Positions 32,166 to 49,208 of a DNA stretch of 58,178 bases are shown here, piece after piece; the first letter of the stretch is position 1; every line of letters begins with the position of its first letter. The notes beneath the pieces were generated by a model. That model saw only the letters and a program-made list of their open reading frames with translations, was not told the origin of the DNA and did not search any database. The stretch comes from Neisseria sp. (GTDB taxonomy: Bacteria; Pseudomonadota; Gammaproteobacteria; Burkholderiales; Neisseriaceae). The position numbers and the translations under genes are program-made. The stretch spans positions 1 through 58,178 of the forward strand of contig JAUNTY010000013.1 of assembly GCA_030538415.1 (NCBI GenBank), read 5' to 3'.

Positions 32166-32650
32166 GTTATGTCCTTTTGGTAAGGTATGCGTTATTGGCA
32201 GACAGGGGGCTGCGGATGTTGTCAGGCAATGCCGGCAAGCATCGGAAATGTGTGTCGGCGAGCCGGGTCATGAGCTGGATTGGGATGCAGCTTTCAGGCT
32301 GCTACAGGAAAATAATAATGGTGCATTTTCGCTAACTTGCTGCTAAATGTCTAGCAAAATATCAAAAAAAGGCATTTTTTCAGGCTAAAGGACGATTTTG
32401 GAGCTGGGTGAAAAGTGCGGAAAAAGGCTTGGGAGTATTTATTCTAAAGGAGGGATGGGAGATAGAGGCCGTCTGAAAAAAAAACGCAGGCATCAAGGCA
32501 ATGCCAATGGAAGGAGCCTTGCTCAACAAAGGCAAACGATGCGGGCGGTGGTTCAAGCTTGCTGACGTGTTGCCGTGTTTGTATGTTTGGGTATCATTGC
32601 CGGGATTATCCGCTATATAATGCCGCTTTGATGAAATCAAGCAGAAAAAC
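32166..32650. other. Divergent intergenic region accB / queA
   Basis: About 485 bases without a gene. It holds a single DUS (near 32466), an AT-rich half (32300-32400) expected to contain the accB promoter, a short inverted repeat TGCTAGACATTTAGCA near 32348, and the queA -10 box. No convincing -35/-10 pair for accB could be fixed by eye. Confidence 0.5.
32616..32621 (+). promoter_or_regulatory. -10 box of queA
   Basis: TATAAT, within TATATAAT, 30 bases before the queA ATG. The -35 region at normal spacing is weak. Confidence 0.5.
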
Positions 32651-33685
32651 ATGCATATTTCCGATTTTGATTTTGAGCTGCCCGACGAGCTGATTGCCCA
32701 GCATCCGCCTGCCGAGCGCGGCAGCAGCCGCCTCTTGGTGGCGCTGCCGGACGAGCCGTTGCAGGATGCGGCGTTTGGCGGGCTCTTGCAATGGGTGGCA
32801 CCCGGTGATGTATTGGTGTTCAACAATACAAAAGTCATGAAGGCGCGTCTGTTTGGCCAAAAAGCCAGCGGCGGCAGGATTGAGGCATTGGTCGAACGGG
32901 TGTTGGACGAGCATACTGCGCTGGCGCATATCCGCTCGTCGAAGTCACCGAAGCCAGGAGCGGAGCTGGTGTTTGAAGGCGGCGTGAGCGCCACCATGCT
33001 GGAGCGCGCGGGCGAATTGTTTTGCCTGCGTTTTGCGGGCGGGCAGAATGTTTATGAGATTTTGGCGCAAAACGGCCACCTGCCGCTGCCGCCTTATATC
33101 GAACGTGCGGCCGGAGATGAGGACGACAGTCGCTATCAGACGGTATATGCCAAGCATCAGGGCGCAGTGGCCGCGCCGACGGCAGGCCTGCATTTTACCG
33201 ATGCGCTGTTGGCAGAGCTGCGGGCGGGCGGCGTACACATGGCGGAAGTGACGCTGCATGTGGGTGCGGGGACGTTCCAGCCGGTGCGGGTAGACAATAT
33301 CGCCGAGCACAAAATGCACAGCGAATGGTTTGAAGTGCCCGAGGCAACAGTGGCGGCGGTAGAGGAGGCCAAAGCGCGCGGCAATCGGGTATGGGCGGTC
33401 GGCACTACTTCCATGCGGGCGCTCGAATCGGCGGCGGCTGCCACAGGCCGTCTGAAAGCAGGGTGTGGCGATACCGACATTTTCATTACGCCGGGTTACC
33501 GCTTTAATGTGGTTGACCGCCTGATTACCAATTTCCATTTGCCGAAATCCACGTTGTTGATGTTGGTGAGTGCTTTTTCGGGAACGGCGCATATCCGCTC
33601 GCTTTATCAGCATGCAATAGGGCAGCGATACCGTTTTTTCAGCTATGGCGATGCGATGATTTTGGGCAGGAAAGAAAACGGATGA
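32651..33685 (+). CDS. queA: tRNA preQ1(34) S-adenosylmethionine ribosyltransferase-isomerase
   Basis: 344 residues. Transfers and isomerises ribose from SAM onto preQ1 at the tRNA wobble position, giving epoxyqueuosine. Begins [22 protein letters not shown] in outline; [26 protein letters not shown] and [16 protein letters not shown] are family blocks. Single gene ending at a very strong DUS hairpin. Confidence 0.96.
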
Positions 33686-33854: not shown

Positions 33855-36011
33855 TCAGTTTTTCTTCTGATATTTGGCATAAGCATAATAGCTGTAGGCG
33901 TCTTGCGCCTCGCGGGCGATGCCGTTGAACACCACGCCGTTGATTTCAACATTGCTTTGCGCCAGACGGTTGACGCTGCTGTCGATTTCCCGCAGGGTGG
34001 TTTTGTTGTAATAGGCTACCAGCAGGGTAGAGCCTGCATGCTGGCCGATGATGCCCGCATCGGTTACCGACAATACAGGCGGGGTGTCGAGAAGCACATA
34101 ATCGAATGTTTTCCGTGCCCACTCAATCAGGGTGTTCAACCGGTGATCCATCAGCAATTCGGAGGGATTATCGGGCAGCTTGCCGTGGCTGATGAAGCTG
34201 AGGTTGTCGATTGATGTGGTTTGCACCGCCTGCTCGGGCGTCAGCTTGCCGGACAGGATGTCCGCCAATCCTTGTTCGGGTTGTACGCCAAACAGCTGGT
34301 TCAGATAACCGCGGCGCATGTCGCAGTCAATCAGCAGGATTTTTTTGTTGGATTGCGCCATGACGGTGGCCAGGTTGGCGGAAATAAACGATTTGCCGGC
34401 TTCGGGGATGGCGCCGGTAATCATCAATACATTATTGGACGCTTCCATCATGGAGAAATAAATATTGGTGCGCAGGGAGCGGATGGCCTCCACTGCCATA
34501 TCTGTCGGCTCTTCGGCGGCCAGAAGATAAGAAGAGCGGTTGCTGAGCGATTTCAGCTTTCTGCCGACCATATCGCGTTTTTGCTGGGTTTTCGACAAAG
34601 GGATAATGGCGGTAACGTCCAGCCCCATGGATTCGATGTCTTCGGGGTTGGTGATGCGCAGACGGGTGGCCGAACGCAGCAGGAACCAGGCAGCAGTTAA
34701 CACACCTGCAGTCAGCGCGGCCAAAAGGGTAATCATTTTTTTGCGCGGCGCCACCGGCAATTCGGCCGTGGCGGCACGGTCAACCACACGCACATTGCCT
34801 TGGGCGCTGGCCTTCATGATGTTCAGCTCTTGTTGTTTGCCCAACAGCTGCATATAGGTGGTTTGGTTGGTATCCACATCGCGGGTGAGACGGATGACTT
34901 CCTGCTGGGTATTGGGCAGGTTGGAAATTTGCTGGTTGATGCGGTTTTTGGCGCGTTCCAATACGGCAAGCTTGTCGAGTACGGCTTTATAAGTAGGGTG
35001 TTCGCGGGTATAGAATTCGGCAATGCCGGCTTCTTCTGTTCTCAATGTGGTAATCTGGCTTTCGATGTCTACCAGGCTTTCCAGCGCACCTTTGGCTTCA
35101 ACGGGGATATCCAGCGAGCCGCTTTTTTTACGGTATTCGTTCAGGCGGTTTTCGGCATCCTCCAGCGCGCCTTTCAGACGCGGCAGCTCTTCGCTGATGA
35201 AAGCCAGGCCGTTGGCGGCCATCTGCACGTCGCGGTCACGGTTTTGACTGACGTAGTTGTCGATGATGCCGTTGAGGATAATGCTGATTTTTGCAGGGTC
35301 GGTGCCGGTGTAGCCGAGGTTGATAATCGGGCTGGTTTTACCTTTGCTGGTAACGGCCAGATTGGTTTTCACCTGGTCGATGGCGGCCAGTTTGGAGTTT
35401 TTGACCAATACGAATTCCTGACCGTCATCGGCGAGAATCTGGTTGACTTGTATGGTGGTGTGCGGATTGATTTTCAGGGCGCGGCCGACCAGGCCGTCAA
35501 TCGTGCTTTCATCGGGCAGTTCGAGCTTGTAGCTCTTGTTGTCGATGGCAGTGAGGGTAATCGGCTTGTTCAGCCATTCTTTTTGCACTTCAAAGGTTTG
35601 CAGCGTGAGTTCGGGATCGACGTCGCTGCTGAGATTGTGCAGTATGCGGCCGACAAGCGGGAAATATTTAGGGTTGACGTCTTGGTCGAGTTGCAGATCG
35701 TCAACGGTTTTGCCAATCACCAGGCGCGACTGCACCAGTTCGATTTCGGCTTCCGAGGGAGAGGGCTCGTTGCTGAACAGGCTGTTGATTTCGGTCAGAA
35801 TCTGGTTTTGTTTGGTTTCCAGCTCTACCATGCCGTCGGCACGGTATACCGGGGTGGCGGTAAAGCTGTAGATGCCGCCGAGCAGGCCGCCGAGCAGCAT
35901 GGCCAGGGCAATCGGATATTTGTGGTTGAGCAGGTTGCGGAACTGCTGCCCCAAGTCGATTTCTCCGCCATTGTCGCTGTGGTGGGTCGGGGTAGGGTGC
36001 TGTTTTGCCAT
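33855..36011 (-). CDS. wzc: Polysaccharide copolymerase and BY-kinase (Wzc-like)
   Basis: 718 residues from ATG 36011 with AGGAAA upstream; a TTG 24 bases earlier is less likely. Two TM segments, near residues 31-50 and again shortly before 410, flank a long periplasmic Wzz domain with coiled coil. The cytoplasmic tyrosine kinase domain has Walker A around K540 (GAIPEAGKS), Walker A' LLIDCDMRRG near 559-567, Walker B LLDTPP at 641, and a C-terminal tyrosine cluster Y706, Y708, Y709, Y711, Y714. It controls chain length and export with Wza; autophosphorylation is reversed by Wzb. Last gene of the locus. Confidence 0.93.
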   Translation of the reverse strand: MAKQHPTPTHHSDNGGEIDLGQQFRNLLNHKYPIALAMLLGGLLGGIYSFTATPVYRADGMVELETKQNQILTEINSLFSNEPSPSEAEIELVQSRLVIGKTVDDLQLDQDVNPKYFPLVGRILHNLSSDVDPELTLQTFEVQKEWLNKPITLTAIDNKSYKLELPDESTIDGLVGRALKINPHTTIQVNQILADDGQEFVLVKNSKLAAIDQVKTNLAVTSKGKTSPIINLGYTGTDPAKISIILNGIIDNYVSQNRDRDVQMAANGLAFISEELPRLKGALEDAENRLNEYRKKSGSLDIPVEAKGALESLVDIESQITTLRTEEAGIAEFYTREHPTYKAVLDKLAVLERAKNRINQQISNLPNTQQEVIRLTRDVDTNQTTYMQLLGKQQELNIMKASAQGNVRVVDRAATAELPVAPRKKMITLLAALTAGVLTAAWFLLRSATRLRITNPEDIESMGLDVTAIIPLSKTQQKRDMVGRKLKSLSNRSSYLLAAEEPTDMAVEAIRSLRTNIYFSMMEASNNVLMITGAIPEAGKSFISANLATVMAQSNKKILLIDCDMRRGYLNQLFGVQPEQGLADILSGKLTPEQAVQTTSIDNLSFISHGKLPDNPSELLMDHRLNTLIEWARKTFDYVLLDTPPVLSVTDAGIIGQHAGSTLLVAYYNKTTLREIDSSVNRLAQSNVEINGVVFNGIAREAQDAYSYYAYAKYQKKN

Positions 36012-36044
36012 GTGATGTGGTTTCCTAAAATTCAATATCGGGTA

Positions 36045-36485
36045 TCAGGCTTGTTTGGCCAGCTTGGCTGCCCAATGTGCGGCGGCTGTTTCCAGCTGCT
36101 GATAAACGGTTTCAAACATCTCTTCGCTTTGGCGGAAGGGATCCGGGATATTTTTTTGCGGCAGCCATTGTCCGAACAACATGGTTTTGCTCCTTGCGGC
36201 GGGCAGGATGTCGGCCACCTGGTCAATGTGGTTTTGCTCCATCACCAAAATCAAATCAGCCTGTTCGCACATTTCTGCGGTGAGCTGTCTGGCCGTATGG
36301 CCTGCCACGACCGTGCCGTGTTTGAGTGCGGTTTTGATGGCCTGAAAGTCGGCATCTTTGCCTGACAGGGCGCGGATGCCGGCCGAGCTGATGCTGAGGC
36401 CGGGCAGCTTTTGCTGCAACAGCCGCTCGCCGGTAGGGGAGCGGCAGATATTGCCGACGCAGACAATCAAGATATTCTGATACAT
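36045..36485 (-). CDS. wzb: Low-molecular-weight protein-tyrosine phosphatase (Wzb-like)
   Basis: 146 residues. P-loop C9VGNICRS16 with catalytic C9 and R15; the general acid aspartate is in IPDPFRQSEEMFE. Dephosphorylates the Wzc tyrosine tail, cycling capsule assembly. Between wza (16 bases upstream) and wzc, the normal order of group 1 type loci. Confidence 0.93.
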   Translation of the reverse strand: MYQNILIVCVGNICRSPTGERLLQQKLPGLSISSAGIRALSGKDADFQAIKTALKHGTVVAGHTARQLTAEMCEQADLILVMEQNHIDQVADILPAARSKTMLFGQWLPQKNIPDPFRQSEEMFETVYQQLETAAAHWAAKLAKQA

Positions 36486-36501
36486 AAACGATTCCGTCAG
36501 G

Positions 36502-37638
36502 TTACTGGAAGGTATTGTCCAGCGAGTTGATGTTGGAAATCGAGTTGGTCAGCTGCGATACTACGCGGTTCCAGCGGGTAACCGGGGCGGCGGTCACGTA
36601 AACCACATCTTCGGCCTCCAGGCGGAACTGATTGCCCAAAGCGTAGGCGCTGGCATCTTTCAGGTTGAGCTGGTAGATGTGGATGGGTTTCTCGCGGTCG
36701 GCAGGCATATTGCGGATGACGAATACGCCGTTGGCGTCGGCCAGTGCTTGGGTCATACCGCTTGCGTTACCCAATGCGCGGGTGAGGGTCAGCCCCTGGC
36801 TGCCCATCGGCAGAGTTGCCTGACGGCCGACTTCGCCCATCACGTAAACCTGGCTGTTTTCGGTGGTGGGCACGTATACGATATCGCCGTTGCTGAGCAG
36901 ATGGTTTTGTGAAAGGTCGCCGTATTGCAGGATGTCTTGCAAGGAAATGGTGCTGTCGACGCCGTTGTGTGTCCATTTGATGTTGCGGGTGTCGGCGTTT
37001 TCGGCGGTGCCGCCGGCGAGGTCGATGGCGTCAAGCAGCGTAATCGGCACATTGGTAATCGGCAGTTGGCCGGCCTGGGTAACGGCGCCGGATACAGTCA
37101 CGCGCTGCGAGCGGAATTCCGTTACGTTAACCGATATCTGCGGGTTTTTGAGATAACGTTGCAGACGGCCTGTCAGCAGGTTTTGCACTTCGGACAGGGT
37201 TTTGCCGCTGACATGAATCTTGCCGGCCAGCGGATAGAAAATATAACCGGCTTCGTCTACCCAGACGCCGTTGCTGACCTGACGGCTTTGCGGATTGATG
37301 CTGCTGGTGGGGGCGGGCGTATCCAGATCCTTGTGGGACCAGACCTGGACGTTCAATACATCGCCGCCGCCGACGCGGTAGCGGTGGCCGGCTTTTTGGG
37401 CGTTGAGGGCGGGATTGCTTTGAGCCAGGCGTTTGGGCAGGCGCATGCTTTCCACCAGATTCAAGGTAATCGGGTAGATGGCGACACGGTTGTCGAGGCC
37501 GATATTATCGGCGGTATCGTTTTCGTTGTAGACGATGGTTTTGTTTTTGGTGGGCAGGCCTGAGCCGGGAATCACGGTGCAGCCGGCGGTAAATGCCAGC
37601 AGGGAAAAGCTGATAACGGTCAGTGTTTTAATATTCAC
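36502..37638 (-). CDS. wza: Outer-membrane polysaccharide export protein (Wza-like)
   Basis: 378 residues from a GTG at 37638 with GGAAGG eight bases upstream. Lipoprotein signal with lipidated C20 (LLAFTAGC). The polysaccharide export domain lies at about 80-165 (YRVGGGDVLNVQVWSHKDL), followed by SLBB repeats (TVSGAVTQAGQLPITNVPIT, VYVMGEVGRQATLPM), and a C-terminal helix crossing the outer membrane as an octameric channel. An in-frame DUS core encodes part of LTGRLQRYL. Confidence 0.92.
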   Translation of the reverse strand: MNIKTLTVISFSLLAFTAGCTVIPGSGLPTKNKTIVYNENDTADNIGLDNRVAIYPITLNLVESMRLPKRLAQSNPALNAQKAGHRYRVGGGDVLNVQVWSHKDLDTPAPTSSINPQSRQVSNGVWVDEAGYIFYPLAGKIHVSGKTLSEVQNLLTGRLQRYLKNPQISVNVTEFRSQRVTVSGAVTQAGQLPITNVPITLLDAIDLAGGTAENADTRNIKWTHNGVDSTISLQDILQYGDLSQNHLLSNGDIVYVPTTENSQVYVMGEVGRQATLPMGSQGLTLTRALGNASGMTQALADANGVFVIRNMPADREKPIHIYQLNLKDASAYALGNQFRLEAEDVVYVTAAPVTRWNRVVSQLTNSISNINSLDNTFQ

Positions 37639-37663
37639 TCAGTAGTCCTTCCTGATGTTTCTT

Positions 37664-37689
37664 GAGGCCGTCTGAACATTCAGACGGCA
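37664..37689. repeat. DUS pair at the capD-like / wza junction
   Basis: AGGCCGTCTGAA and TTCAGACGGCAT with only CA between. The right arm, read on the minus strand, is a canonical ATGCCGTCTGAA and provides the stop TGA of the upstream dehydratase gene. Confidence 0.75.
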
Positions 37690-39587
37690 TGATGCGTGGT
37701 TTGCTGCCAAACCAAATCGCAGATATCGTCTTTCGGCGCGAAACCGGTGGGCGCCTCCAGCAACAACTGGCGCAGCGTCATTTGGTCTGACTGGCGGCAG
37801 GCCGCATCCATGCGGTCGAGTATGTCAGAAAGTGTCACCCACGGCAGCATAACTTCGTTGGCGGTCATAATGCGGGGATGAGTGGTCTTTTCCACTTCAT
37901 CGCCAATCAGCAGCTCCTCATACAATTTTTCGCCGGGGCGCAGGCCGGTGACCTTGATTTCGATGTCGCCGTCAGGGTGGGCTGCATCTTTTATCTCCAG
38001 ACCACTCAAACGTATCATTTGTTTCGCCAAATCAATGATTTTTACAGATTCGCCCATGTCGAGCACAAACACATCGCCGCCTTTGCCCATCGCGCCCGCC
38101 TGGATGACCAGTTGCGCAGCTTCGGGTATGGTCATGAAATAACGGGTGATGTCCGCATGGGTGAGGGTGACCGGGCCGCCTGCTGCGATTTGTTTTTCAA
38201 ATACGGGCACAACCGAGCCGGAGGAACCGAGCACATTGCCGAAACGCACCATGCAGAAACGGGTGGGCTGGCCGGGTTCGGCCGCCAGTGCCTGCAATAC
38301 CAGCTCCGCCATGCGCTTGCTGGCGCCCATGGTGTTGGTGGGGCGCACGGCCTTGTCGGTGGAAATCAAGACAAAGGTTTCCACTTGGGCGTCAATGGCG
38401 GCCTGGGCGCAGAACATGGTGCCGTAAATATTGTTGCGCACGCCTTCGATGGTGTTGAATTCCACCATCGGCACGTGTTTGTAGGCAGCCGCATGGTAAA
38501 CGGTTTGCACGCCGAAGGCTTTCATCACGTTAAAGAGGCGGTTGCGGTGTTGCACCGAGCCCAGAAGCGGCAATACTTCAATCGCCATGCCGTGTTCGGC
38601 TTGGTATTCGCGCAGCTCTTTGTCGATGCTGTAGAGAGAAAACTCAGACAATTCAAACAAAATCAGCTTGGCAGGCTGGCGCTGGATAATCTGGCGGCAC
38701 AATTCCGAGCCGATGGAGCCGCCCGCGCCGGTGACCATCACCACTTTGCCGCTGATGTCGGCCGCCATCAGTTCGGGGCGCGGCGCAACCGGATCGCGGC
38801 CGAGCAGATCTACCACCGAGATTTTTTTGAGCGAGCTGATGTTGATTTTGCCGTCGACCAAATCCTTCATGCCGGGAATGGTCAGCACTTCGCAAGGATA
38901 AGGTTCGAGGCGCTGCACCAGCATTTTGCGCTCTTCAACGGATGCGCTGGGGATGGCCAGCAGGATTTTTTCCACGCCGTAGCGGTTAATCAAGTCGTTG
39001 ATTTCAGACGGCCTGTGTACAGGTAAATCGTAAATCAGCGTGCGCTGGAGTTGGGGATTGTCGTCCACAAAGGCCACCGCATGGTATTCGTTTACCTGTT
39101 TGATGGCTTCCAGCAGTTGGCGGCCGGACTGCCCGGCACCGTAAATGATGACCGGCGCCATCTGCTTGTTGTGCCGGCCGCCGGTGAGGATGGTGCGCAG
39201 CATCAGGCGCGAGCCTGCAATCAGCACCACCAGCAGCAGAAAATACACAAACGGCAGCGCCAGGCGTAGGCGCTGCTCGAAAATCAGCGCGCTCAACAGA
39301 AACAATACGGCCGAAATGGCGCTGCCGATTACCGCCGTGGTCAGCACTTTGGTGCTGACGTAGCGGGTAACGGCGCGGTAAAGACCCAGGCGGACAAACA
39401 GGAAAATGGTCAACGCGGCGGTGACGACAAATGCCAGCCAGTTGGCGGAGCTGATCCATTCCTGCGAATAGCCGCTTTTCAGGCTTTGGGCAAACCAGAA
39501 CGCAAAGAAAATCACCAGCATATCGTGAATCACGAAGAAGGTTTTTTTGACATTGCGGGGCAGGGCTAACAGGGTTTCCAAATTCAT
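37680..39587 (-). CDS. pglD: UDP-sugar 4,6-dehydratase, membrane type (PglD/WbpM/CapD-like)
   Basis: 635 residues. Four TM segments in 1-130, a first nucleotide-binding domain (YGAGQSGRQLL at 149-159), and an SDR dehydratase domain with VTGAGGSIGSE at 285-295. The catalytic S410-D411-K412 and M420xxxK424 (NTMGASK) show the Met-for-Tyr substitution of the WbpM/FlaA1 group. Converts UDP-GlcNAc to the 4-keto-6-deoxy sugar. In Neisseria, PglD does this for pilin glycan synthesis; here it stands beside a PglC-like aminotransferase. The stop codon lies in a DUS. Confidence 0.88.
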   Translation of the reverse strand: MNLETLLALPRNVKKTFFVIHDMLVIFFAFWFAQSLKSGYSQEWISSANWLAFVVTAALTIFLFVRLGLYRAVTRYVSTKVLTTAVIGSAISAVLFLLSALIFEQRLRLALPFVYFLLLVVLIAGSRLMLRTILTGGRHNKQMAPVIIYGAGQSGRQLLEAIKQVNEYHAVAFVDDNPQLQRTLIYDLPVHRPSEINDLINRYGVEKILLAIPSASVEERKMLVQRLEPYPCEVLTIPGMKDLVDGKINISSLKKISVVDLLGRDPVAPRPELMAADISGKVVMVTGAGGSIGSELCRQIIQRQPAKLILFELSEFSLYSIDKELREYQAEHGMAIEVLPLLGSVQHRNRLFNVMKAFGVQTVYHAAAYKHVPMVEFNTIEGVRNNIYGTMFCAQAAIDAQVETFVLISTDKAVRPTNTMGASKRMAELVLQALAAEPGQPTRFCMVRFGNVLGSSGSVVPVFEKQIAAGGPVTLTHADITRYFMTIPEAAQLVIQAGAMGKGGDVFVLDMGESVKIIDLAKQMIRLSGLEIKDAAHPDGDIEIKVTGLRPGEKLYEELLIGDEVEKTTHPRIMTANEVMLPWVTLSDILDRMDAACRQSDQMTLRQLLLEAPTGFAPKDDICDLVWQQTTHHAV

Positions 39588-39617
39588 GGTCGGTTATTCT
39601 TGAGATTTGAAGGAAAA

Positions 39618-40793
39618 TTAAGCGGTGGCCTGAGTCAGCACGTCCCGGATTTCTTTGCAGCAAAAATCCATTTCGTCGGCGCTCAGGGTGGGGTGCACCA
39701 GAAACATCAGGCTGGTGTCGCCCAGCGCCACGGCGTTTTTCAGGCGCTCTTTGGGGCGCCACGGCGTGTTGTCGAAGGCTTTTTCCAGATATACTTCCGA
39801 GCAACTACCCTGATAGCAGGGCACTTTGCGCGCGGCCAGCTCGTTGACGATGCGGTCGCGGCTCCAGCCTTCCTTCAGGTTTTCCGGTTTGATAAAGGCA
39901 TAGAATTTGTATTGCGCATGCTCGATATAATCCGGCACGTCAATCAGGCGGATGGTGGCAAACGACTTCATGGCGGCTTCGAGTTTGGCGGCGTTGGCCT
40001 GACGTTTGGCCGTCCAGTCGGGCATGCGCTTGAGCTGGATGCGGCCGATGACGGCCTGCATTTCCATCATGCGCCAGTTGGTGCCGAAGCTTTCGTGCAG
40101 CCAGCGGAAACCGGGTGCGTGTTCGCGGTGGTAAACGGCGTCGTAGCTTTTGCCGTGGTCTTTGTATGACCACATTTTCGACCACAAATCTTTGTCGTTG
40201 GTGGTGACCATGCCGCCTTCGCCGCCGGTGGTCATGATTTTGTCCTGACAAAACGACCAGGCGCCGACGTGGCCGATGGAGCCGACCGGTTTGCCTTTGT
40301 ATTTCGCACCGTGCGCTTGGGCGCAGTCTTCAATCACCCACAGATTATGCTGCTCGGCCAGCGCCATGATGCCGTCCATTTCGGCAGGCATACCGGCCAG
40401 ATGCACCACGACAATCGCTTTGGTGTTGGGGGTCAAGGCCGTCTGAATGGTTTCCGGGCTGATGTTTTGGCTGTTTAAATCCACATCGGCAAACACGGGG
40501 TTGGCACCGGCGGTGACGATGGCGGAAGCCGAAGCGAGGAAGGTGCGCGAGGTCACAATCACATCATCGCCCGCGCCGATGCCCATTGCTTTGAGGGCGA
40601 CATCCAGCGCCAGCGTGCCGTTGCCCAGCGCGATGGCGTATTCGGTGGCGGCAAAGGCAGCGAATTCTTTTTCAAATTCGCGGCATTCGCTGCCGGTCCA
40701 GTAATTGACCTTGTTGGAAAGCAACACGCGAGAGACTGCGTCGGCTTCTTCCTGGGTAAAGCTCGGCCAGGGTGACAATGAGGTATTCAGCAT
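39618..40793 (-). CDS. pglC: DegT/DnrJ-type PLP aminotransferase (PglC-like)
   Basis: 391 residues. Sugar aminotransferase of the AHBA/DegT family; PLP lysine K185 in WSFCQDKIMTTGGEGG, with GNGTLALDVAL and EDCAQAHGA. Expected to aminate the 4-keto sugar from the neighbouring dehydratase to UDP-4-amino-4,6-dideoxy-GlcNAc. Overlaps the HAD gene by 7 bases and precedes the dehydratase by 30. Confidence 0.85.
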   Translation of the reverse strand: MLNTSLSPWPSFTQEEADAVSRVLLSNKVNYWTGSECREFEKEFAAFAATEYAIALGNGTLALDVALKAMGIGAGDDVIVTSRTFLASASAIVTAGANPVFADVDLNSQNISPETIQTALTPNTKAIVVVHLAGMPAEMDGIMALAEQHNLWVIEDCAQAHGAKYKGKPVGSIGHVGAWSFCQDKIMTTGGEGGMVTTNDKDLWSKMWSYKDHGKSYDAVYHREHAPGFRWLHESFGTNWRMMEMQAVIGRIQLKRMPDWTAKRQANAAKLEAAMKSFATIRLIDVPDYIEHAQYKFYAFIKPENLKEGWSRDRIVNELAARKVPCYQGSCSEVYLEKAFDNTPWRPKERLKNAVALGDTSLMFLVHPTLSADEMDFCCKEIRDVLTQATA

Positions 40794-41461
40794 AATAAAT
40801 CCTTTAATTCGTTCAAGTCGTTTATCCAGTAGTGGGGCTGGTGGGCGGCGGAGAAGTCGGCGGCATCATGGCGGTGGATGTTGTTGGCCGCCGCTTTCAG
40901 GCCGATGGTTGTCCAGCCTTGCGCATTCGGCGTGACAAAATCTTTTTTGATGTTGTCGCCGATGTAAATCCAGTGTTTGCCGGGGTAGCATCGGCGGATG
41001 AAATCAAAGCGCTCTGGCCGCGGTTTTTCGGAAGCAAAAGCTTCGGAAATCAATACGTGGTCAAAACAATTGTCCAAGCCGAGGGCATGCAGTTTCAGGC
41101 GCTGGGTGAGGCTGCGGCCGTCTGAAATCAGTGCGCTGGCGGCAAAGCGTCCGAGTAGGCCGATCAGGGTTTCAGACGGCATATAGGGCGCGATGTCAGG
41201 CTCGTGCAGGCGGTAATGCCACAGCAGCGAGGTTTTTTCGGCATCGTTGAAGCCGCAATACGCGCAGATGCGGTCGAGCCAGTCGCTTTTGTGCATGTCC
41301 AGCAAAGCCAATAATTCTTGCTCGCCGTACTGCGGATAGGCCGCGGCAACTTGCCGGCACACGGCGCGAATGCCGGACACTTTATAGTCGAATTCCGAAT
41401 ACAGGGTGTCGTCGAGATCGAACACAATCACGCTGTCGGCAGCGTTTGGCAGCGGGCTCAT
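40787..41461 (-). CDS. HAD-superfamily hydrolase
   Basis: 224 residues with motif I VFDLDDTLYSE, motif II LISDGRS, motif III lysine in SEKPRPERF, and motif IV YIGDNIKKD. A helical cap lies between I and II. Substrate is unknown. The position between an ATP-grasp ligase and the aminotransferase, overlapping both genes by a few bases, suggests it prepares or recycles the acyl donor (for example dephosphorylating a phosphoglycerate), but this is inference. Confidence 0.8.
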   Translation of the reverse strand: MSPLPNAADSVIVFDLDDTLYSEFDYKVSGIRAVCRQVAAAYPQYGEQELLALLDMHKSDWLDRICAYCGFNDAEKTSLLWHYRLHEPDIAPYMPSETLIGLLGRFAASALISDGRSLTQRLKLHALGLDNCFDHVLISEAFASEKPRPERFDFIRRCYPGKHWIYIGDNIKKDFVTPNAQGWTTIGLKAAANNIHRHDAADFSAAHQPHYWINDLNELKDLLC

Positions 41462-42426
41462 CCGCGCACCAGCACTTTCGCGTCATAGCGCAACATAATC
41501 AGGTTGTCTTCCCATTGGTCGAAGAACGGGATTTCCTCACCGTAGAAATATTCGCGCATCAGCCAGCCCGGATAGTTGCCGCCGGCGGCGTAGGTCAGCG
41601 GGAAACCGCCGCCGAAGCGGGGGTTGATTTCCACGCCGTAAACGGTTCGGCTTTCATTATGATAGAAAAACTGGGCGGTGATGCAGCCGCGGGCTTCTTC
41701 AAGCGCGGCCAGTTTTTCGTTCAGAAAATCATACAGCCAGCCACGGCGGGTAGCGCCCTTGCTCACTTCGCCGGAGCGCACTTCCAAACGCTCGCGCGGC
41801 ACGGTGCATTTCAGACGGCCTTGGCGGTCGTAATACATGTCGACGGTAAATTCCTTGAAGGTATTTTTGATGTCGATAAGCTGGCAAAACATCATTTTCG
41901 GGTCGTTTTTCAGCTCGTCGGTCAGCTCTTCCGCACTGTTGACCGGTTGCGCGCCGATGCCGCGGCTGCCGTCATAGGGCTTGGCGAAGCAGGGAAACTC
42001 GATGGTTTCGGGCGTGTAGATTTTCGGCGCTTCGATGCCGTAGCGGTTAAACAGCGCCACGGTATCGCGTTTGTCGCGGCATTGGCGGATCAGGCCGCTG
42101 CCGGAGACGATGATGTGGATGCCCGCGGCTTCAAAGCGCGCGCGCGCTTCGGCCAGCTTCAACAATTCGGTGTCGATGGTTGGAATCACCAAACCCACGT
42201 TTTGTTCGTCAGCAAGTTGAAAAATACTGTCAATATAGTTTTCCGCGCTGATACGGGGCACAGCAAACGCACCGTCGGCCACTTGGCAGGCGGAAGACAT
42301 TTTTGGGTTTAAATCGGTGCAATAAACACGGATGCCGTCTGAAAGCTTGGTGGCTTCTGCTTTGAAATCCTGAACCAGCTCAACGCGGCGGCCGGCGGAT
42401 AAAATCAGAATATTATTTTTTTTCAT
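41458..42426 (-). CDS. ATP-grasp ligase, PglB2 C-terminal-like
   Basis: 322 residues from ATG 42426, preceded by AGGAAA. CarB-like ATP-grasp fold: N-terminal NILILSAGRRVELV, central FPCFAKPYDGSRGIGAQPV and YGVEINPRFGGGFPLTYAAGGN. In meningococcal PglB2 an ATP-grasp domain is fused to the sugar transferase and makes the glyceramido sugar of pilin glycans; here the two are separate genes. Codons 2-4 lie on an A8 tract shared with the end of the sugar transferase gene, so loss of one A would fuse them. An in-frame DUS core lies near 41811. Confidence 0.8.
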   Translation of the reverse strand: MKKNNILILSAGRRVELVQDFKAEATKLSDGIRVYCTDLNPKMSSACQVADGAFAVPRISAENYIDSIFQLADEQNVGLVIPTIDTELLKLAEARARFEAAGIHIIVSGSGLIRQCRDKRDTVALFNRYGIEAPKIYTPETIEFPCFAKPYDGSRGIGAQPVNSAEELTDELKNDPKMMFCQLIDIKNTFKEFTVDMYYDRQGRLKCTVPRERLEVRSGEVSKGATRRGWLYDFLNEKLAALEEARGCITAQFFYHNESRTVYGVEINPRFGGGFPLTYAAGGNYPGWLMREYFYGEEIPFFDQWEDNLIMLRYDAKVLVRG

Positions 42427-43030
42427 GGTCGTCGTTTCCTGTGAAGAAAGGCATGGTGGCATCGCCCTGAGCGGAAATGCCTTCGCGCACAAATACTTTT
42501 TTCACGGTTAAAAACAGAATCTTGATGTCGAGCCACAGGCTGCGGTTGTCGACATACCATACATCGTATTCGAATTTCTGGTTCCACGAGATGGCGTTGC
42601 GGCCGTTGACCTGCGCCCAGCCGGTCACGCCCGGTTTCACTTCGTTGCGGCGGCGTTGGAAATCGTTATACAACGGCAGATACTGCATCAGCAGCGGGCG
42701 CGGGCCGACCAGACTCATCTCGCCTTTCAAGACGTTCCACAATTCCGGTAACTCGTCGAGGCTGCTGGCGCGCAGCTTGCGACCGAACGGGGTGAGACGC
42801 TCGCTGTCGGGCAGGGCGTTGCCCTGTGCATCTACGGCGTCGCGCATGGAGCGGAATTTAATCATCTTGAAGGGCTTGCCGTCTTTGCCCGGGCGGGTTT
42901 GGGTGAAAAACACCGGCGAGCCGAGGTTTTTGCGGATAAGGTAAACCAGCAGCAACAAGACCGGCGACAGCACAATCAAGCCTGCTGCCGAAGCGATGAT
43001 ATCCAACAGACGTTTCAAAATGTCATTCAT
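42413..43030 (-). CDS. Undecaprenyl-phosphate sugar phosphotransferase (PglB/PglC monotopic type)
   Basis: 205 residues from ATG 43030. A re-entrant membrane helix near 8-35 (SPVLLLLVYLI), then FFTQTRPGKDGKPFKMIKFRSM, LDELPELWNVLKGEMSLVGPRP with the catalytic acidic pair, and KPGVTGWAQVNGRNAISW. Transfers a sugar-1-phosphate from UDP to undecaprenyl phosphate, starting glycan assembly. Closely resembles the single-domain Campylobacter PglC and the N-terminal half of Neisseria PglB. Overlaps the upstream glycosyltransferase by 8 bases and the ATP-grasp gene by 14. Confidence 0.9.
   Translation of the reverse strand: MNDILKRLLDIIASAAGLIVLSPVLLLLVYLIRKNLGSPVFFTQTRPGKDGKPFKMIKFRSMRDAVDAQGNALPDSERLTPFGRKLRASSLDELPELWNVLKGEMSLVGPRPLLMQYLPLYNDFQRRRNEVKPGVTGWAQVNGRNAISWNQKFEYDVWYVDNRSLWLDIKILFLTVKKVFVREGISAQGDATMPFFTGNDDHEKK
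42416..42423 (-). repeat. A8 homopolymer in the sugar transferase / ATP-grasp overlap
   Basis: On the minus strand CATG is followed by eight A and TAATATT. The transferase reads GAA AAA AAA TAA; the ligase reads ATG AAA AAA AAT. Removing one A joins the two frames (GAA AAA AAT AAT). Homopolymers of this size are slippage-prone. Confidence 0.9.
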
Positions 43031-44195
43031 GGGCGAGTTTCTCAATCAGGGTCACGATTTTTTGGTAGGCTACATCGCGCTTGAAGCGGTGTACGATTTC
43101 CTGCGACTGTACAGGGTCGTTGCGGCGTTGCAGAATCTGTTTGGCGGCGGCGACAAAACCATCGACATCGCCGGAGCGGTAGTCGGCATGCGGCAGCAGC
43201 GTGAGCACTTCGGCCACTTCGTCGTTGACCTGGCTGTTTAGAATCGGTTTTTGCAGCGCCATGTAATCGGACAGTTTGTTGGTAATCGACTGCATGGCAT
43301 ACGAATGAATCGGGTTGACGGAAATATCACAGCCTTTGGCAATCGCCATCATGTCGGCATAGGGAATATAGCCGTAAAAGATAATCGATTCGTTGGCGTA
43401 GGCTTTCAGTTTCTCCAAATCGGGGCCGCCGCCCATAATGTGCAGCTCTACTTTTTCGCCGGCATCCAGCAACTTCTGCACGCCTTTGCAGACGGTTTCG
43501 ACATCGTAGCTGAAGCTCAAGGTGCCGAGGTAAAAGAAGCGGATAACGCCGTCTGAAAAGCGTTTGGCTTCTACGCGCTCCAGCGTTTCAAAATCGGCAC
43601 CGATATACACCACTTCGCCGGGCGCGGCCGGGTTGGCTTCTTTGGCGCGATCGAGATAGGTTTGCGACACCGCCACAAGGCCGTCGGCATGGCGGTAGGC
43701 CGCGTTGGCGCGAGAGGCAAACGGCAGCAGGTTGTGCGGGATTTTCTTCAATACCGGCACCACCGATGAAAACGATTCCGGCCACACATCTTGCACGTCG
43801 ATAATCAGTTTATAACCCAAATGCGCTTTGTGTTTGCCCAGCAGAATATTGGTCGCAATTAAGGGATAAGCGGAAAAAACCACATCCTGATCACCAGGTT
43901 GACAGGCCTGCAGCCAGCGTTCGAAATCTTTGACGAACACATCATGGCTTTTGACGCGTGCCAAGGAAACGTTCTTCGAATAACCGCTCTCATTCATCAG
44001 CTTCACTTTCAGACGGCCTTTTGAAGCAGCTTCGGCATCTTCAGGCCGTCTGAACGATTTGTCGTAATGTTTGAAGTTGCTGGTAATCAGCAACACGTCA
44101 TGCGACTGGCTCAAGAGCTCCGCCAGATACCAGAAACGGTTGAAATGCGGTTCGGAAGGCAGTGAGCAATAGGGGGCAACAATGGTAATCTTCAT
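43023..44195 (-). CDS. Glycosyltransferase, GT4 type (WbuB-like)
   Basis: 390 residues. Two Rossmann domains: N-terminal APYCSLPSEPHFNRFWYLAELL in outline, with LIIDVQDVWPES; C-terminal FYLGTLSFSYDVETVCKGV and the donor-binding segment IHSYAMQSITNKLSDYMALQKPIL. Retaining family, nucleotide-sugar donor unknown; LSDYMALQKP resembles L-FucNAc transferase WbuB. Directly before the initiating transferase. The gene contains DUS copies near 44044 and 43553. Confidence 0.85.
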   Translation of the reverse strand: MKITIVAPYCSLPSEPHFNRFWYLAELLSQSHDVLLITSNFKHYDKSFRRPEDAEAASKGRLKVKLMNESGYSKNVSLARVKSHDVFVKDFERWLQACQPGDQDVVFSAYPLIATNILLGKHKAHLGYKLIIDVQDVWPESFSSVVPVLKKIPHNLLPFASRANAAYRHADGLVAVSQTYLDRAKEANPAAPGEVVYIGADFETLERVEAKRFSDGVIRFFYLGTLSFSYDVETVCKGVQKLLDAGEKVELHIMGGGPDLEKLKAYANESIIFYGYIPYADMMAIAKGCDISVNPIHSYAMQSITNKLSDYMALQKPILNSQVNDEVAEVLTLLPHADYRSGDVDGFVAAAKQILQRRNDPVQSQEIVHRFKRDVAYQKIVTLIEKLAHE

Positions 44196-44209
44196 CTGAG
44201 TCTTCCGGC

Positions 44210-45280
44210 TTACATATTGTAGGCAGCCATGGTGGTACGATAGATTTCTTCATCGGAACATAGTGTTGTAACGTGTTTGTTGAGTGCATCGCCAAATTGC
44301 TGGCGAAGGGCGGCATCGTTTACCAAAGTTTCTACCGCATCGGCAAAAGCCGGTAAGTCATCAAACGGCATGCAGTAGCCGGTTTTTTCATGGATAACCA
44401 TTTCGGAGATACCGGCGGTGTCGTAAGTGACCACGGCTGTATGGTAGAGTCCGGCTTCCAAGATGTTGTTGCCTACGCCTGCACTGCGGTCTCCCGGAAA
44501 ATTGGGCGTATTCAGCAAGATATCAGTTTCACGGAAGTAGGCATACAAGTCACGTACGCCGCCCAAGAAGGTAACTTTTTCTTCAATGCCCAGCTCTTTG
44601 GCAAGGGCTTTGAGGTTGTCAAGCTCTTCACCGATGCCGGCGATTTGTAAACGCACAGGCAGATTTTTATCGTCCAGCATCTTGAAAATACGCAGGGTGT
44701 CGGCAACGTTACGCAATTTTTGTAGACGGGAAAGTGTGCCCAGCATGATGTAGTCTTTCTGTGTTTTTTCGGGCACAGAATCGACTTTAGGTACGGCATT
44801 GTAGGTATAGCTGATGCGGCTGGCCGGAAAGCCGTAACGAATCAGCTTTTGCTGCTCATGCTTGCAGTTTCCAATAATATAAACACCTAATTTATCAAAC
44901 AGTTTGGCAATTTTCGGATAGGTTTCCGGTTCAAGTCCGCGAGAGTGGTAAAACACTTTGGTTTTGGGAGAAACCAGTTTGGCAGCCATCGCACAGGCAG
45001 GAACGACTCGCGCCATTTGGCAATGAACAATATCAGGCTTTTCTTTTTTCAACATTTTGAGTAAAGCGGTGGAAGATTTTAGGTAGCCTAAAGCCCCTCC
45101 TTGGTAGAAATCGATGTCATACCACTGTATACCCAAAGCCTTCGCATCTGGTATTAACGGGCCGTCTGATGAGGCTAAAATAACTTGGTGTCCTTGCTTT
45201 TTTAATAAGCTACCCAAGCGGAATGAGGCATGTTCGGTGCCGCCAAGGCCACTCATGGAGGTTGCTAAGATGATTTTCAT
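44210..45280 (-). CDS. Glycosyltransferase, GT4 type
   Basis: 356 residues. Glycine-rich N-terminus LATSMSGLGGTEHASFRLGSLL in outline, typical of family 4 acceptor domains, HSRGLEPETY, and the C-terminal NTPNFPGDRSAGVGNNILEAGLYHTAVV containing the E-x7-E-like donor motif. Adds one of the repeat-unit sugars on the cytoplasmic face. Overlaps wzy by 4 bases. By eye, lower GC than flanking housekeeping genes. Confidence 0.85.
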   Translation of the reverse strand: MKIILATSMSGLGGTEHASFRLGSLLKKQGHQVILASSDGPLIPDAKALGIQWYDIDFYQGGALGYLKSSTALLKMLKKEKPDIVHCQMARVVPACAMAAKLVSPKTKVFYHSRGLEPETYPKIAKLFDKLGVYIIGNCKHEQQKLIRYGFPASRISYTYNAVPKVDSVPEKTQKDYIMLGTLSRLQKLRNVADTLRIFKMLDDKNLPVRLQIAGIGEELDNLKALAKELGIEEKVTFLGGVRDLYAYFRETDILLNTPNFPGDRSAGVGNNILEAGLYHTAVVTYDTAGISEMVIHEKTGYCMPFDDLPAFADAVETLVNDAALRQQFGDALNKHVTTLCSDEEIYRTTMAAYNM

Positions 45281-46551
45281 GTGTTTATTCCAGTAGGTTT
45301 AAATCGAGATTGGCGGGATGTTACATAAATAAAAATAAGAAAACAGGGGAGCCATATAAACGGTAGCCTGAGGATGGTTGAAGGTATAAAGCCCGCAATC
45401 AGAAAAATGCCCATACTGCATATGGCGATAAAGCGCAGTTTGGAGGAATAGGTGCGGCTGTAGAGACATGTCATGATATAAAGCAAGACATAGCCCAAAA
45501 AGGCTGCAAATGATATCAGGCCAAAACCGAGATAAAGTTCGATTAGAAAACTGTGTGGGTTTTCAAATCCCAGGCTGCTGCTGATGTGGCCGCCAAAATA
45601 TTCACCGAAATTTTTGGGACCGTAGCCAGTGTAGAGCAAGGGCGGGTTGTGCCAGAAATAATTGTATATCTCCTGACGGTAGGATACGGAGTTGTCGCTT
45701 TCGAGCTCATACAGAAAAAGATACACGCGGGATGAGAATCGCTCCAAGAACTCATTGCCGTTTAGTGACAGCAGAAAATCCTGAATCAGCCTGGAGGGAA
45801 TCATCCACAACAACATGCCGAATGCGGCCAATACCAAGGCAGTGGTCAGGCCATTGCGCCGGTAGGCCAAGGTCAGGAGCAATAACAGCAGGTAGCAGGC
45901 GATGGCTGTGCGCGATACGCTCGCAAAAATGACCGCACCAAGCAGGAGAAACAATAGCCAACCTAGGAGAGTGCTTTTTTTATGGTTGTCAGCCAGATTG
46001 AAGAATATCAAAACGGCCGGTGTCAGGCATAATGCGGTAGTGGCCAAATTATTGGGGTTAAAAAACAGGCCTTTCAGGGTTCCCGAGTCTAGAGATAGGG
46101 CTTCGTTGCCGGCAACAAACTGAAATCCGCTAACCAGTTCGATAAATGTGGGAAGAGAGATACAAATGGTAAAAAAGATGATAAAACGGCGGATAAAGCC
46201 GAGGTTGTCGGGATGACGGCTGATAATCAGATAGAGTATATAAAAATAGCTCGGTAAAATTGCAAACATCATCAGGTCGGCAAACTGGGCTGCCGTGATG
46301 GATGAAAAAATAATATGCAGCAGACTCCAGCCGCCCATGACTGCCAGCAAGATTTGTGCAGCTGCTATTTTTCGCGGCAGACGTTTGTTTTCCAGAATGA
46401 AAATGGCAAAAGAAAGCAGAATGAAAAGCAGGGTCGCCGGGTTGTCAATGCGGGGAATCCCTATTCTGTAAAATAAAGTCGGCCCCAGCATGTATGCGGC
46501 AAGCATCGCATAAGCAAGAAAAGTGTAAAGGGTCAGGCTTTTGATTTTCAC
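45277..46551 (-). CDS. wzy: O-antigen/capsule polymerase (Wzy) or ligase-like membrane protein
   Basis: 424 residues from a GTG at 46551 (weak ribosome-binding site), with about 10-12 TM segments. The Wzy_C/WaaL motif FFNPNNLA at 163-170, SVSRTA near 211-216 and ENPHSFLIELYLG with H333 are hallmarks of Wzy/WaaL proteins. Within a locus with flippase and Wzc it is most simply the polymerase; a PglL-like oligosaccharyltransferase or ligase role cannot be excluded. AT-rich, as usual for wzy genes. Confidence 0.8.
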   Translation of the reverse strand: MKIKSLTLYTFLAYAMLAAYMLGPTLFYRIGIPRIDNPATLLFILLSFAIFILENKRLPRKIAAAQILLAVMGGWSLLHIIFSSITAAQFADLMMFAILPSYFYILYLIISRHPDNLGFIRRFIIFFTICISLPTFIELVSGFQFVAGNEALSLDSGTLKGLFFNPNNLATTALCLTPAVLIFFNLADNHKKSTLLGWLLFLLLGAVIFASVSRTAIACYLLLLLLTLAYRRNGLTTALVLAAFGMLLWMIPSRLIQDFLLSLNGNEFLERFSSRVYLFLYELESDNSVSYRQEIYNYFWHNPPLLYTGYGPKNFGEYFGGHISSSLGFENPHSFLIELYLGFGLISFAAFLGYVLLYIMTCLYSRTYSSKLRFIAICSMGIFLIAGFIPSTILRLPFIWLPCFLIFIYVTSRQSRFKPTGINT

Positions 46552-46587
46552 GATAATAGTCTTAAAATGCAGTTTGTTGTATATGCT

Positions 46588-48009
46588 CTATGCCGTTTTC
46601 AGACGGCCACGGATTTTGGCGATGGCTTGTTGCAGTTCGGCCTTGCGCTTGAACACAATGAAGGCTAAGGCGGCCAGCCAAATCAGGGTGAAGAGCCAGT
46701 AGTTTTCAGTATTGCCCCAGCGGGTATAAGCCAAGCTAACCAGCAGGCAAGTCAATGTGGTGGTGTAAATTTTAAAACGGGGCAGTTTTTGCCATAAGAA
46801 TGAAGAAATTTCTGTTTTCATGGCGAAAAACAGCCAAAATGAAATGGCAGTGGACATCGCCGCACCTTTTGCCCCCAAAGAAGGCACGAGGCTTTGCAGC
46901 AAAGCGAAATTAATGCCGAATGCAATCAGGGAAACCAAGGTAATCAGCCAGGTTTTCTTGGCAACATTGATGCCGATGCCGGTCACTTCGGTCAGGGTGT
47001 AGAGTAGGGGGAAAATCATGCTGGATAACAGGATAAACTGAACCGGAGCATAATTTTCAGGCAGCACCCATGTTACCAACGGTGAAAAAATACCCACCAC
47101 GCAAATGAGTGCGGCAATGAAGTCAGACATCGTATAGGCAATACTGTCGATTTTATCCAAGTTGCTGTTTTCTTTCACCCATTTAAAGACTAAAGGCGCC
47201 CAAATTGTGGAGAAAACACTTTGAAAAATCAGGGCGACTGCACCAAAGCTAACCGCCATCGAATACACACCCAATTCAGATAAACTCCCGTATTGTTTCA
47301 GCAACAGACGGTCAACGGCAGTCAATCCCCAGTAGGCCAAGCCGCCGAAGACCAAAGGCACGCCGTAGTGCAGGTTTTCACGCAGCAGCTTCATATCAAC
47401 CCGACTGTGCCATGCCTGTGTGACAGTATGCCGGGTTTGCAGCAGCAAAATCACTAAGGTAAGCAGCTGTGCTATCGCATATGCAGCCATAAGGTTAAAA
47501 GTATCGGCCTTCATACCAATTAGGACGTAAAGGCCTACCAGTAGTAGAATCAATACCTTCGGAGTCAGTTGGCTGAAGGAAAAGGCAAAAGAGCGCTCCT
47601 CCATCCGGAGAATGAGGGAAAAAAAACGAGTCAGTATGGCTCCTGCCAAAAATACAATACATAAAATGCCTAAAGACTCATCCTCTAATTCTAAAATCGT
47701 GAAGGCAGACCAAGAGGGAAATATTCCGGCCAGCAGTAACCCGAAAAACAGAGTCAGAGCGAAAGGCAGCAAAAAAATGGTTTTAAACAGTTGGTTTTTA
47801 TCGTTGATTGCATGATATTCGCGGACATAAGCCTGATCCAGCCCGAAGCCGCACACAATCAATGCCATGGTGCAAACGGTTTGCAGCAGCATAATGCGCC
47901 CGATGTCATCTGCTGGGAAGTACCAAGAGATAAGCGGGATTGAGATAAGGCTAACGGCTGCACCGCCAATCGGCCCCAGCGCGTAACCCAGTAGTTTCTT
48001 TATATTCAT
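46588..48009 (-). CDS. wzx: Polysaccharide repeat-unit flippase (Wzx)
   Basis: 473 residues, 12-14 predicted TM segments, MATE/PST type (begins NIKKLLGYALGPIGGAAVSLI in outline; YSMAVSFGAVALIFQSVFS mid-protein). Flips the undecaprenyl-linked repeat unit to the periplasm. A T8 tract in the coding strand (within LTRFFSLIL, near 47617-47624) is a possible slippage site. The stop is followed by a gap of 36 bases to wzy. Confidence 0.87.
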   Translation of the reverse strand: MNIKKLLGYALGPIGGAAVSLISIPLISWYFPADDIGRIMLLQTVCTMALIVCGFGLDQAYVREYHAINDKNQLFKTIFLLPFALTLFFGLLLAGIFPSWSAFTILELEDESLGILCIVFLAGAILTRFFSLILRMEERSFAFSFSQLTPKVLILLLVGLYVLIGMKADTFNLMAAYAIAQLLTLVILLLQTRHTVTQAWHSRVDMKLLRENLHYGVPLVFGGLAYWGLTAVDRLLLKQYGSLSELGVYSMAVSFGAVALIFQSVFSTIWAPLVFKWVKENSNLDKIDSIAYTMSDFIAALICVVGIFSPLVTWVLPENYAPVQFILLSSMIFPLLYTLTEVTGIGINVAKKTWLITLVSLIAFGINFALLQSLVPSLGAKGAAMSTAISFWLFFAMKTEISSFLWQKLPRFKIYTTTLTCLLVSLAYTRWGNTENYWLFTLIWLAALAFIVFKRKAELQQAIAKIRGRLKTA

Positions 48010-48038
48010 TTCAATTATTGTGCTTTAGGCCGTCTGAA

Positions 48039-49208
48039 TCAAGCGGGAGTATGAACTGCTTTTTGGTAAACAACATTTAATTGGTCAACAACGGATTGTT
48101 CGCCAAATTCGGCCAGAGTTTGCTGACGGAGTGTTGCCGCATCATATTGCTGCCGGTTTTCATATAACTGGACTAGCGCATCGGCCAGCTGTTGGGGGTG
48201 ATTGGTTTCTACCAGCAAGCCGTTGTTTGCGTTGACAATAGATTCCGGACCACCACAGCGGGTCGCCACTACCGGCAAACCTTGCGACAAGGCTTCGATA
48301 AAGACTACACCGAAAGTCTCAATATGGCTGGCTAAGGTAAATGCATCGCTTTGGCGCATGAGCGCCATCACGCCATTATTATCTAATTTGCCGAGAAAAC
48401 GGACTGAGGTTTGCAAATCTAAAGTGCGTGCCAATTCTTTCAGACGGCCTTCGATAGCGCCGCCACCACCAATATCCAGTTTGAAATGCGGATATTTTTT
48501 TCTTGCCAGCGCAAAGGCTTGGAGCAGAACGTCAAATCCTTTGTTTGGATTGAGGTTGGCTACCGAGCAAAAAGTAAAATGCTCGTCTTGCGGTTTGGAT
48601 GACAGATTGGTATTGGTACAAAAACGCGGCGCCAGCAGGTTTGGAATATAATCCCAATTCAGGCCGTTGTATTCGCGGTTCAGCAGCTTGGCAAAGTCAT
48701 GACTGACGGCGATGCGGGCGGCCGCATTTTCGGCAGCCTCTTGCATAAAGGGGCGTTGCCATTTGCGGATTAATCCGCGGGCGTATGTGCTGCTGTGTTC
48801 CGTAATCACATAGGGAATACGGTATTTCTTGCTGATGTCGCAAGCGATAATGCCGCCTTGGTTGACGCAGTGGGCATGCAAAATATCCGGCATACCATGG
48901 TCGGCGACATAGCGCTCGAATAATTTATGCCCTGCTTTTAGCCAGGCATGCTGTTCTAAAGGCAAGCGTGGGAAAAAACTGGTATTGCGATAAATATAGG
49001 TGGGAATGCTTTCCTCTGTGTAATGCTTGATTCCGTACGGTTCTAATATAATAGGTTTTAACCCTTGCCGTAGCGAACGGAAGTGCCCTGCGATGACACC
49101 GACTTGATGCCCTGCGCGTTGTATAGCCTGAGCCTGCAAACGGAAAAAAATGCCGTTTACATCGTCAGGTGTTTGAGGGTACCAAGAGGGAATAATCAGG
49201 ATGTGCAT
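48039..49208 (-). CDS. Glycosyltransferase, GT4 type
   Basis: 389 residues. N-terminal IPSWYPQTPDDVNGIFFRLQA, VITEHSSTYARG, then FCSVANLNPNKGFDVLLQAFA and the donor site SHIETFGVVFIEALSQGLPVVATRCGG, a textbook GT4 E-x7-E motif. Probably transfers a repeat-unit sugar; donor unknown. A DUS core lies in frame near 48440, and one DUS occupies the gap to wzx. Confidence 0.88.
   Translation of the reverse strand: MHILIIPSWYPQTPDDVNGIFFRLQAQAIQRAGHQVGVIAGHFRSLRQGLKPIILEPYGIKHYTEESIPTYIYRNTSFFPRLPLEQHAWLKAGHKLFERYVADHGMPDILHAHCVNQGGIIACDISKKYRIPYVITEHSSTYARGLIRKWQRPFMQEAAENAAARIAVSHDFAKLLNREYNGLNWDYIPNLLAPRFCTNTNLSSKPQDEHFTFCSVANLNPNKGFDVLLQAFALARKKYPHFKLDIGGGGAIEGRLKELARTLDLQTSVRFLGKLDNNGVMALMRQSDAFTLASHIETFGVVFIEALSQGLPVVATRCGGPESIVNANNGLLVETNHPQQLADALVQLYENRQQYDAATLRQQTLAEFGEQSVVDQLNVVYQKAVHTPA

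Follow-up and report, generated by a model that had tools for sequence, protein, structure and literature searches.

A split pglB2-type gene pair with a 14-base overlap and an A8 run at its seam in Neisseria

Here, we describe a phosphoglycosyl transferase gene and an ATP-grasp gene that overlap in a 58,178-nucleotide stretch of DNA from Neisseria sp. (contig JAUNTY010000013.1 of assembly GCA_030538415.1; hereafter, the window). The pair is probably an ordinary split pglB2, that is, a transferase and an ATP-grasp ligase made as two proteins of one translationally coupled message, with the run of eight adenines (A8) at the seam being mostly a by-product of a Met-Lys-Lys-Asn (M-K-K-N) start. This reading draws on the overlap, the domains of the two proteins, the gene order and the cross-species pattern, all of which were observed directly.

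Tracts of A and AG are reportedly what the abstract of a 2013 pglB2 study describes. That study dealt with allelic variation of a simple sequence repeat in neisserial pglB2 (Viburiene et al. 2013, J Bacteriol 195:3476-3485), and, going by passages that refer to it, the existence of split and fused pglB2 related through a poly-A tract is already known, having been published for N. meningitidis in 2013. The window gene pair resembles the one in that study in combining a transferase with an ATP-grasp protein and in having a poly-A tract where fused and split forms part, but comes from another Neisseria and is accompanied by genes of the Wzx/Wzy and Wza-Wzb-Wzc types.

The gene pair and its locus

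The transferase gene (42413..43030, minus strand) encodes a 205-aa protein that consists of a bacterial sugar transferase domain (Pfam Bac_transf, 3.7e-66), the N-terminal half of PglB and PglB2. Its start was placed at the ATG at 43030, the ORF being open to a TTG at 43045, and its closest solved relatives are 8g1n (1.6e-67) and 8e37 (2.1e-66), N,N'-diacetylbacillosaminyl-1-phosphate transferase. Directly after it, as a separate overlapping ORF, comes the gene for a 322-aa ATP-grasp ligase (41458..42426, minus strand; PylC-like_N, 1.1e-25; ATPgrasp_Ter, 1.3e-09), presumably the glyceramido-transferring half of PglB2, which matches the PRK12767 group at 9e-113 with 376.5 bits, under the group cut-off of 390, and has 2pn1 as its sole solved match at E ≤ 0.01. 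Next on the same strand are genes for a HAD-type hydrolase (40787..41461; HAD_2, 6.9e-11), a DegT-type aminotransferase (39618..40793; DegT_DnrJ_EryC1, 9.5e-95) and a sugar-nucleotide 4,6-dehydratase-type protein (37680..39587; Polysacc_synt_2, 3.3e-128), the last two being one each of the PglC/PglD pair, so that the locus reads transferase, ATP-grasp, HAD, aminotransferase, dehydratase.

This order agrees with what is stated of pglB2 loci in passages of two papers, one defining PglB2 as an ATP-grasp domain plus a phosphoglycosyl transferase with ORF8 next (PMC11130364) and the other reporting that in strain 8013 pglB2 is followed by a HAD region (PMC10948894); the HAD gene of the window is likely the ORF8 said to follow pglB2, and the aminotransferase and dehydratase genes come after it. 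The presence of both domains in one polypeptide is a trait of fused alleles only and is not seen in the window. Because the name pglB2 is also given to a split gene in the literature, in a passage on strain LIM707 where the split form was 'previously found to maintain functionality' (PMC4569582), separate ORFs do not bar membership. Both pglB2 and pglB2b are further listed for three isolates classified as N. subflava (excerpt of PMC7643975), and the meningococcal locus is placed between ribD and avtA (excerpt of PMC4569582). The earlier note had taken the pair for PglB2; domain make-up, gene order and the existence of both split and fused forms (24 and 1, below) favor this assignment, and, judged from sequence, the pair is most likely a split pglB2 allele, a glyceramido sugar being its predicted product. 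The homologous transferase half is also found in PglB, the diNAcBac enzyme in which the transferase is fused to an acetyltransferase, and there the partner is joined at the same seam (8 of 45 genomes); the PglB partner, however, is an acetyltransferase of the NeuD/PglB/VioB type, whereas that in the window is an ATP-grasp protein.

In the proposed pathway, the ATP-grasp, HAD, aminotransferase and dehydratase proteins would together make a UDP-glyceramido-trideoxyhexose, the sugar of which the membrane phosphoglycosyl transferase would load onto undecaprenyl phosphate. The pglB2-type genes belong to a single minus-strand run (33855-49208) that also holds Wzx, Wzy, several glycosyltransferases and genes of the Wza-Wzb-Wzc type. 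Matches to the latter were found in 22 of 24 related regions, one of the other two being cut by a contig end, and in two of the 24 (L036 and L040) the HAD gene was undetected near the ATP-grasp gene by tblastn at 1e-10, with the aminotransferase and dehydratase genes there. The host genome contains one match to the transferase family at E ≤ 0.001 and one to PglL_A, on another contig, which together make protein O-glycosylation plausible.

Elsewhere in the window, a 10-base motif that we take to be the neisserial uptake sequence occurs in 66 copies, both strands counted. Right after one of these lies an A9 run (32476-32484, plus strand), upstream of a 344-aa plus-strand ORF at 32651 that looks QueA-like by eye.

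The overlapping seam and its A8 run

The transferase ORF ends with GAA AAA AAA TAA at 42413, and the ATP-grasp ORF begins with ATG AAA AAA AAT at 42426, both on the minus strand, giving a 14-base overlap (42413..42426) that encloses the A8 run (42416..42423, T8 on the plus strand). Inspection of the frames in silico confirmed the arrangement that had been described for this seam, namely that loss of one A joins the transferase and ATP-grasp frames. Conversely, with one extra A the ATP-grasp ATG is no longer in frame with the rest of its ORF, and fusion of the two ORFs takes a change of -1 or +2 bases. A base loss that fuses them can fall anywhere in the upstream open stretch of the ATP-grasp frame, which reaches at least a TTG at 42492, and is not confined to the A run.

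Under the favored interpretation, both proteins would be read from one message, with translation of the transferase stopping at the TAA and that of the ATP-grasp protein restarting at the ATG 11 bases before the stop, an arrangement for coupled termination-reinitiation that has counterparts at other junctions of the gene run: between 33855 and 49208, 5 of 12 junctions overlap, the seam included, by 4, 8, 14, 4 and 7 bases. A possible weak ribosome binding site, AGGAAACG (42433..42440, minus strand), precedes the ATP-grasp ATG by about 10 bases. The duplex energy of the 20 bases before this ATG is -4.3 kcal/mol, compared with a median of -1.7 and a 10th percentile of -4.6 among 1000 random 20-mers, so that Shine-Dalgarno pairing at this stretch is suggestive only, and the same bases double as Gly-Asn codons common to many of the transferases. 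This energy is higher than the 10th percentile though below the median, and, with so weak a stretch that doubles as coding sequence, coupling is something that we infer.

The run itself would mostly be the outcome of the M-K-K-N start, the preferred lysine codon and the overlapping stop. Across mechanically called ORFs of at least 150 aa in the window and the 24 related regions, some of which are not genes, lysine is encoded by AAA in 7587 of 9208 codons and asparagine by AAT in just 2603 of 7507. With AAA preferred, an M-K-K-N start readily yields the A's; the T that closes the run is there because the overlapping TAA requires it, codon preference alone not favoring AAT. A8 accompanies 11 of 12 M-K-K-N starts, above the square of the AAA share (about 0.68), although five of these come from one tight group.

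Runs of this length are also not rare in the surrounding DNA. The window contains 5 A/T runs of at least eight, against 6.3 ± 2.4 expected from 200 first-order Markov simulations, and thus shows no enrichment; the 24 related regions (468,012 bases) contain 33 runs of eight and one of nine. The exact string ATG-A8-TAAT has a single copy in the 2.84-Mb assembly, at the seam. A degenerate DNA pattern of the seam matched 7 stretches, 5 in Neisseria-titled records and 2 in MAGs of other groups, and a scan of a contig collection for the ATP-grasp protein returned 115 stretches by pattern and 0 confirmed relatives.

The seam across Neisseria

Of 83 genomes of the family, 25 contain the ATP-grasp protein, and each of these belongs to the genus of the window, which is represented by 46 genomes; an order-wide search of 399 genomes (E ≤ 1e-40) recovered the protein in 6, all of the same genus. 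In 24 of these 25 pairs the genes are split, and in one (G011) they are fused. The relative frame is identical in all 24 split pairs. Measured from the innermost ATG, the genes overlap by 14 bases in 20 pairs, by 17 in two and by 11 in two, one of the 11-base overlaps rising to 14 with the ATG immediately before it. The longest stretch of A's inside the overlap is more variable: eight in 11 of the 24 split pairs, six in 4 and two to five in 9. The 14-base overlap persists even without an A run, as in ATGACAACCAATAA and ATGATCAAACCTAA. In one close group of four, G015 has A8, and the other three (G027, G032 and G035) are two substitutions away with length kept. The A8 state changes 6 times on the 25-row ATP-grasp tree, on which the fused row was scored as not A8. 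It is thus the overlap, held at 14 bases in 20 of 24, that is preserved more closely than the run, which varies by substitution.

These data bear on the proposal of the earlier note that the A8 tract is a phase-variable switch, in which slipped-strand changes between A7, A8 and A9 would yield a fused enzyme, two enzymes, or a transferase without the ATP-grasp protein. The frame logic works in silico, a passage in the literature holds that the N. meningitidis gene fusion 'appears to be mediated by a poly-A repeat tract' (PMC5320596), and short runs can switch, as with meningococcal siaD at seven G (excerpt of PMC5953494). The search for A7 or A9 that the note called for found neither among the 25 pairs; with one genome per species and five of the 11 A8 alleles near-identical, all five from one tight group on the ATP-grasp tree, this is a weak test. 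The remaining observations are also unfavorable: 13 of the 24 split pairs lack A8, and the run falls short of the length cut-off for a phase-variable repeat locus, the cut-offs given for Neisseria in the cited part of a phasome survey being G9 and T11 (PMC5953494). In addition, the legend of a 2024 review names phase-variable tracts in pglA, pglE, pglG, pglH/H2 and pglI, pglB2 being absent from that legend (PMC11130364). We consider a phase-variable choice between separate and fused enzymes in this lineage highly unlikely.

The fused allele gives the idea little help. Both domains of the G011 gene were confirmed by Pfam. Read directly, its seam has no ATG and is net 4 bases shorter than that of the window between the Gly-Asn and Asn-Ile codons, so a one-A slip does not explain the present allele, and the single-base deletion envisaged in the note is not what separates it from the window. 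G011, the window and G046 form one group on the transferase tree (96/84); the ATP-grasp tree recovers this group weakly (80/59) and marks G011 as a long branch. These groupings, along with the frame offset common to all 24 split pairs, speak for a further suggestion, that the seam preserves a trace of the origin of fused PglB2, with the split pair being one indel from a fused gene. The lone fused ATP-grasp allele, lacking the ATG and differing by four bases rather than by one A, speaks against it, and we regard this origin as rather unlikely. The seam is nevertheless evolutionarily labile, with a fused form in the most closely related lineage and, according to citing papers, in N. meningitidis as well.

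Transcriptional slippage on A8 could instead supply a minor fused protein that is in use, for example by tethering the ATP-grasp ligase to the membrane enzyme. As in the genes with poly-A slippage (dnaX of Thermus thermophilus and IS elements), an A run sits where two frames join or part (excerpt of PMC1088944), and for Deinococcus radiodurans and Nostoc the same source suggests productive slippage on eight A. The natural fusion in the related G011 genome implies that a fused form is tolerated, and in Buchnera the commonest transcriptional deletion is of a single base, over half of such deletions being in homopolymer runs (excerpt of PMC5574713). However, the survey of dnaX and IS-type slippage was built on runs of nine, while the run here is of eight, is not conserved as programmed slippage would have it (11 of 24 split pairs), and precedes a second ORF with its own start. 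Selection against A/T runs, moreover, shows at nine in a large share of 108 genomes (excerpt of PMC1088944), and in E. coli A/T runs mostly suffer insertions, deletions in runs being rare, whereas fusion here needs -1 or +2 (excerpt of PMC5574713). Such use of slippage is, in our estimate, very unlikely; A8 is compatible with rare slippage, and no switch is evident in this lineage.

Partners of the transferase and biological meaning

The transferase is present in 45 of the 46 genomes of the genus, the miss being G039, which is 68% complete. Its partner in these 45 genomes is a split ATP-grasp gene in 24, a fused ATP-grasp domain in 1, a fused acetyltransferase in 8, a split acetyltransferase in 6, none adjacent in 5 and an apparent ATP-grasp remnant in 1. 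Labels of the 20 genomes that lack an ATP-grasp match were assigned by eye, and 2 of the 14 acetyltransferases, among them one fused protein, were profile-checked; the G041 label relies on an incomplete transferase match, G042 is truncated by a contig end, and the acetyltransferase of G012 is 247 bases downstream. The remnant belongs to G024 (L096), where the transferase is followed by what appears to be a truncated ATP-grasp start, with no ATP-grasp match in the genome. Counting 'none adjacent' as its own partner state and scoring the G024 remnant as ATP-grasp, the transferase tree of the 45 genomes requires at least 6 changes in partner state and 4 in fusion state, counts that have no shuffle control and that recombination may distort.

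In L089 and L102, the acetyltransferase partner is also split, its ATG overlapping the transferase end, and the overlapping seam is thus not special to ATP-grasp. On the transferase tree, the rooting of which is uncertain, six genomes with a fused acetyltransferase nest among those with a split ATP-grasp gene, which would mean a late partner swap in that group. A broader possibility is that the transferase end, near its F-T-G-N motif, serves throughout the genus as an exchange joint at which ATP-grasp and acetyltransferase partners would have been swapped, fused or split several times, with a minor fusion made by slippage in A8 lineages having a role of its own; taken as a whole, we find this quite improbable. 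Among titles on phosphoglycosyl transferase fusions and on Wza/Wzc with pgl genes in Neisseria, no direct match was noticed.

As the one match to its family in the host genome, the transferase may prime protein glycans and an exported polysaccharide alike. The idea of a switch has already been raised for meningococci in passages of the published pglB2 work; if such a switch were real, cells would choose between a tethered and a free sugar-modifying enzyme and could thereby tune which sugar starts their glycans. The genomes sampled here suggest that the split pair, seen in 24 of 25, is the usual form.
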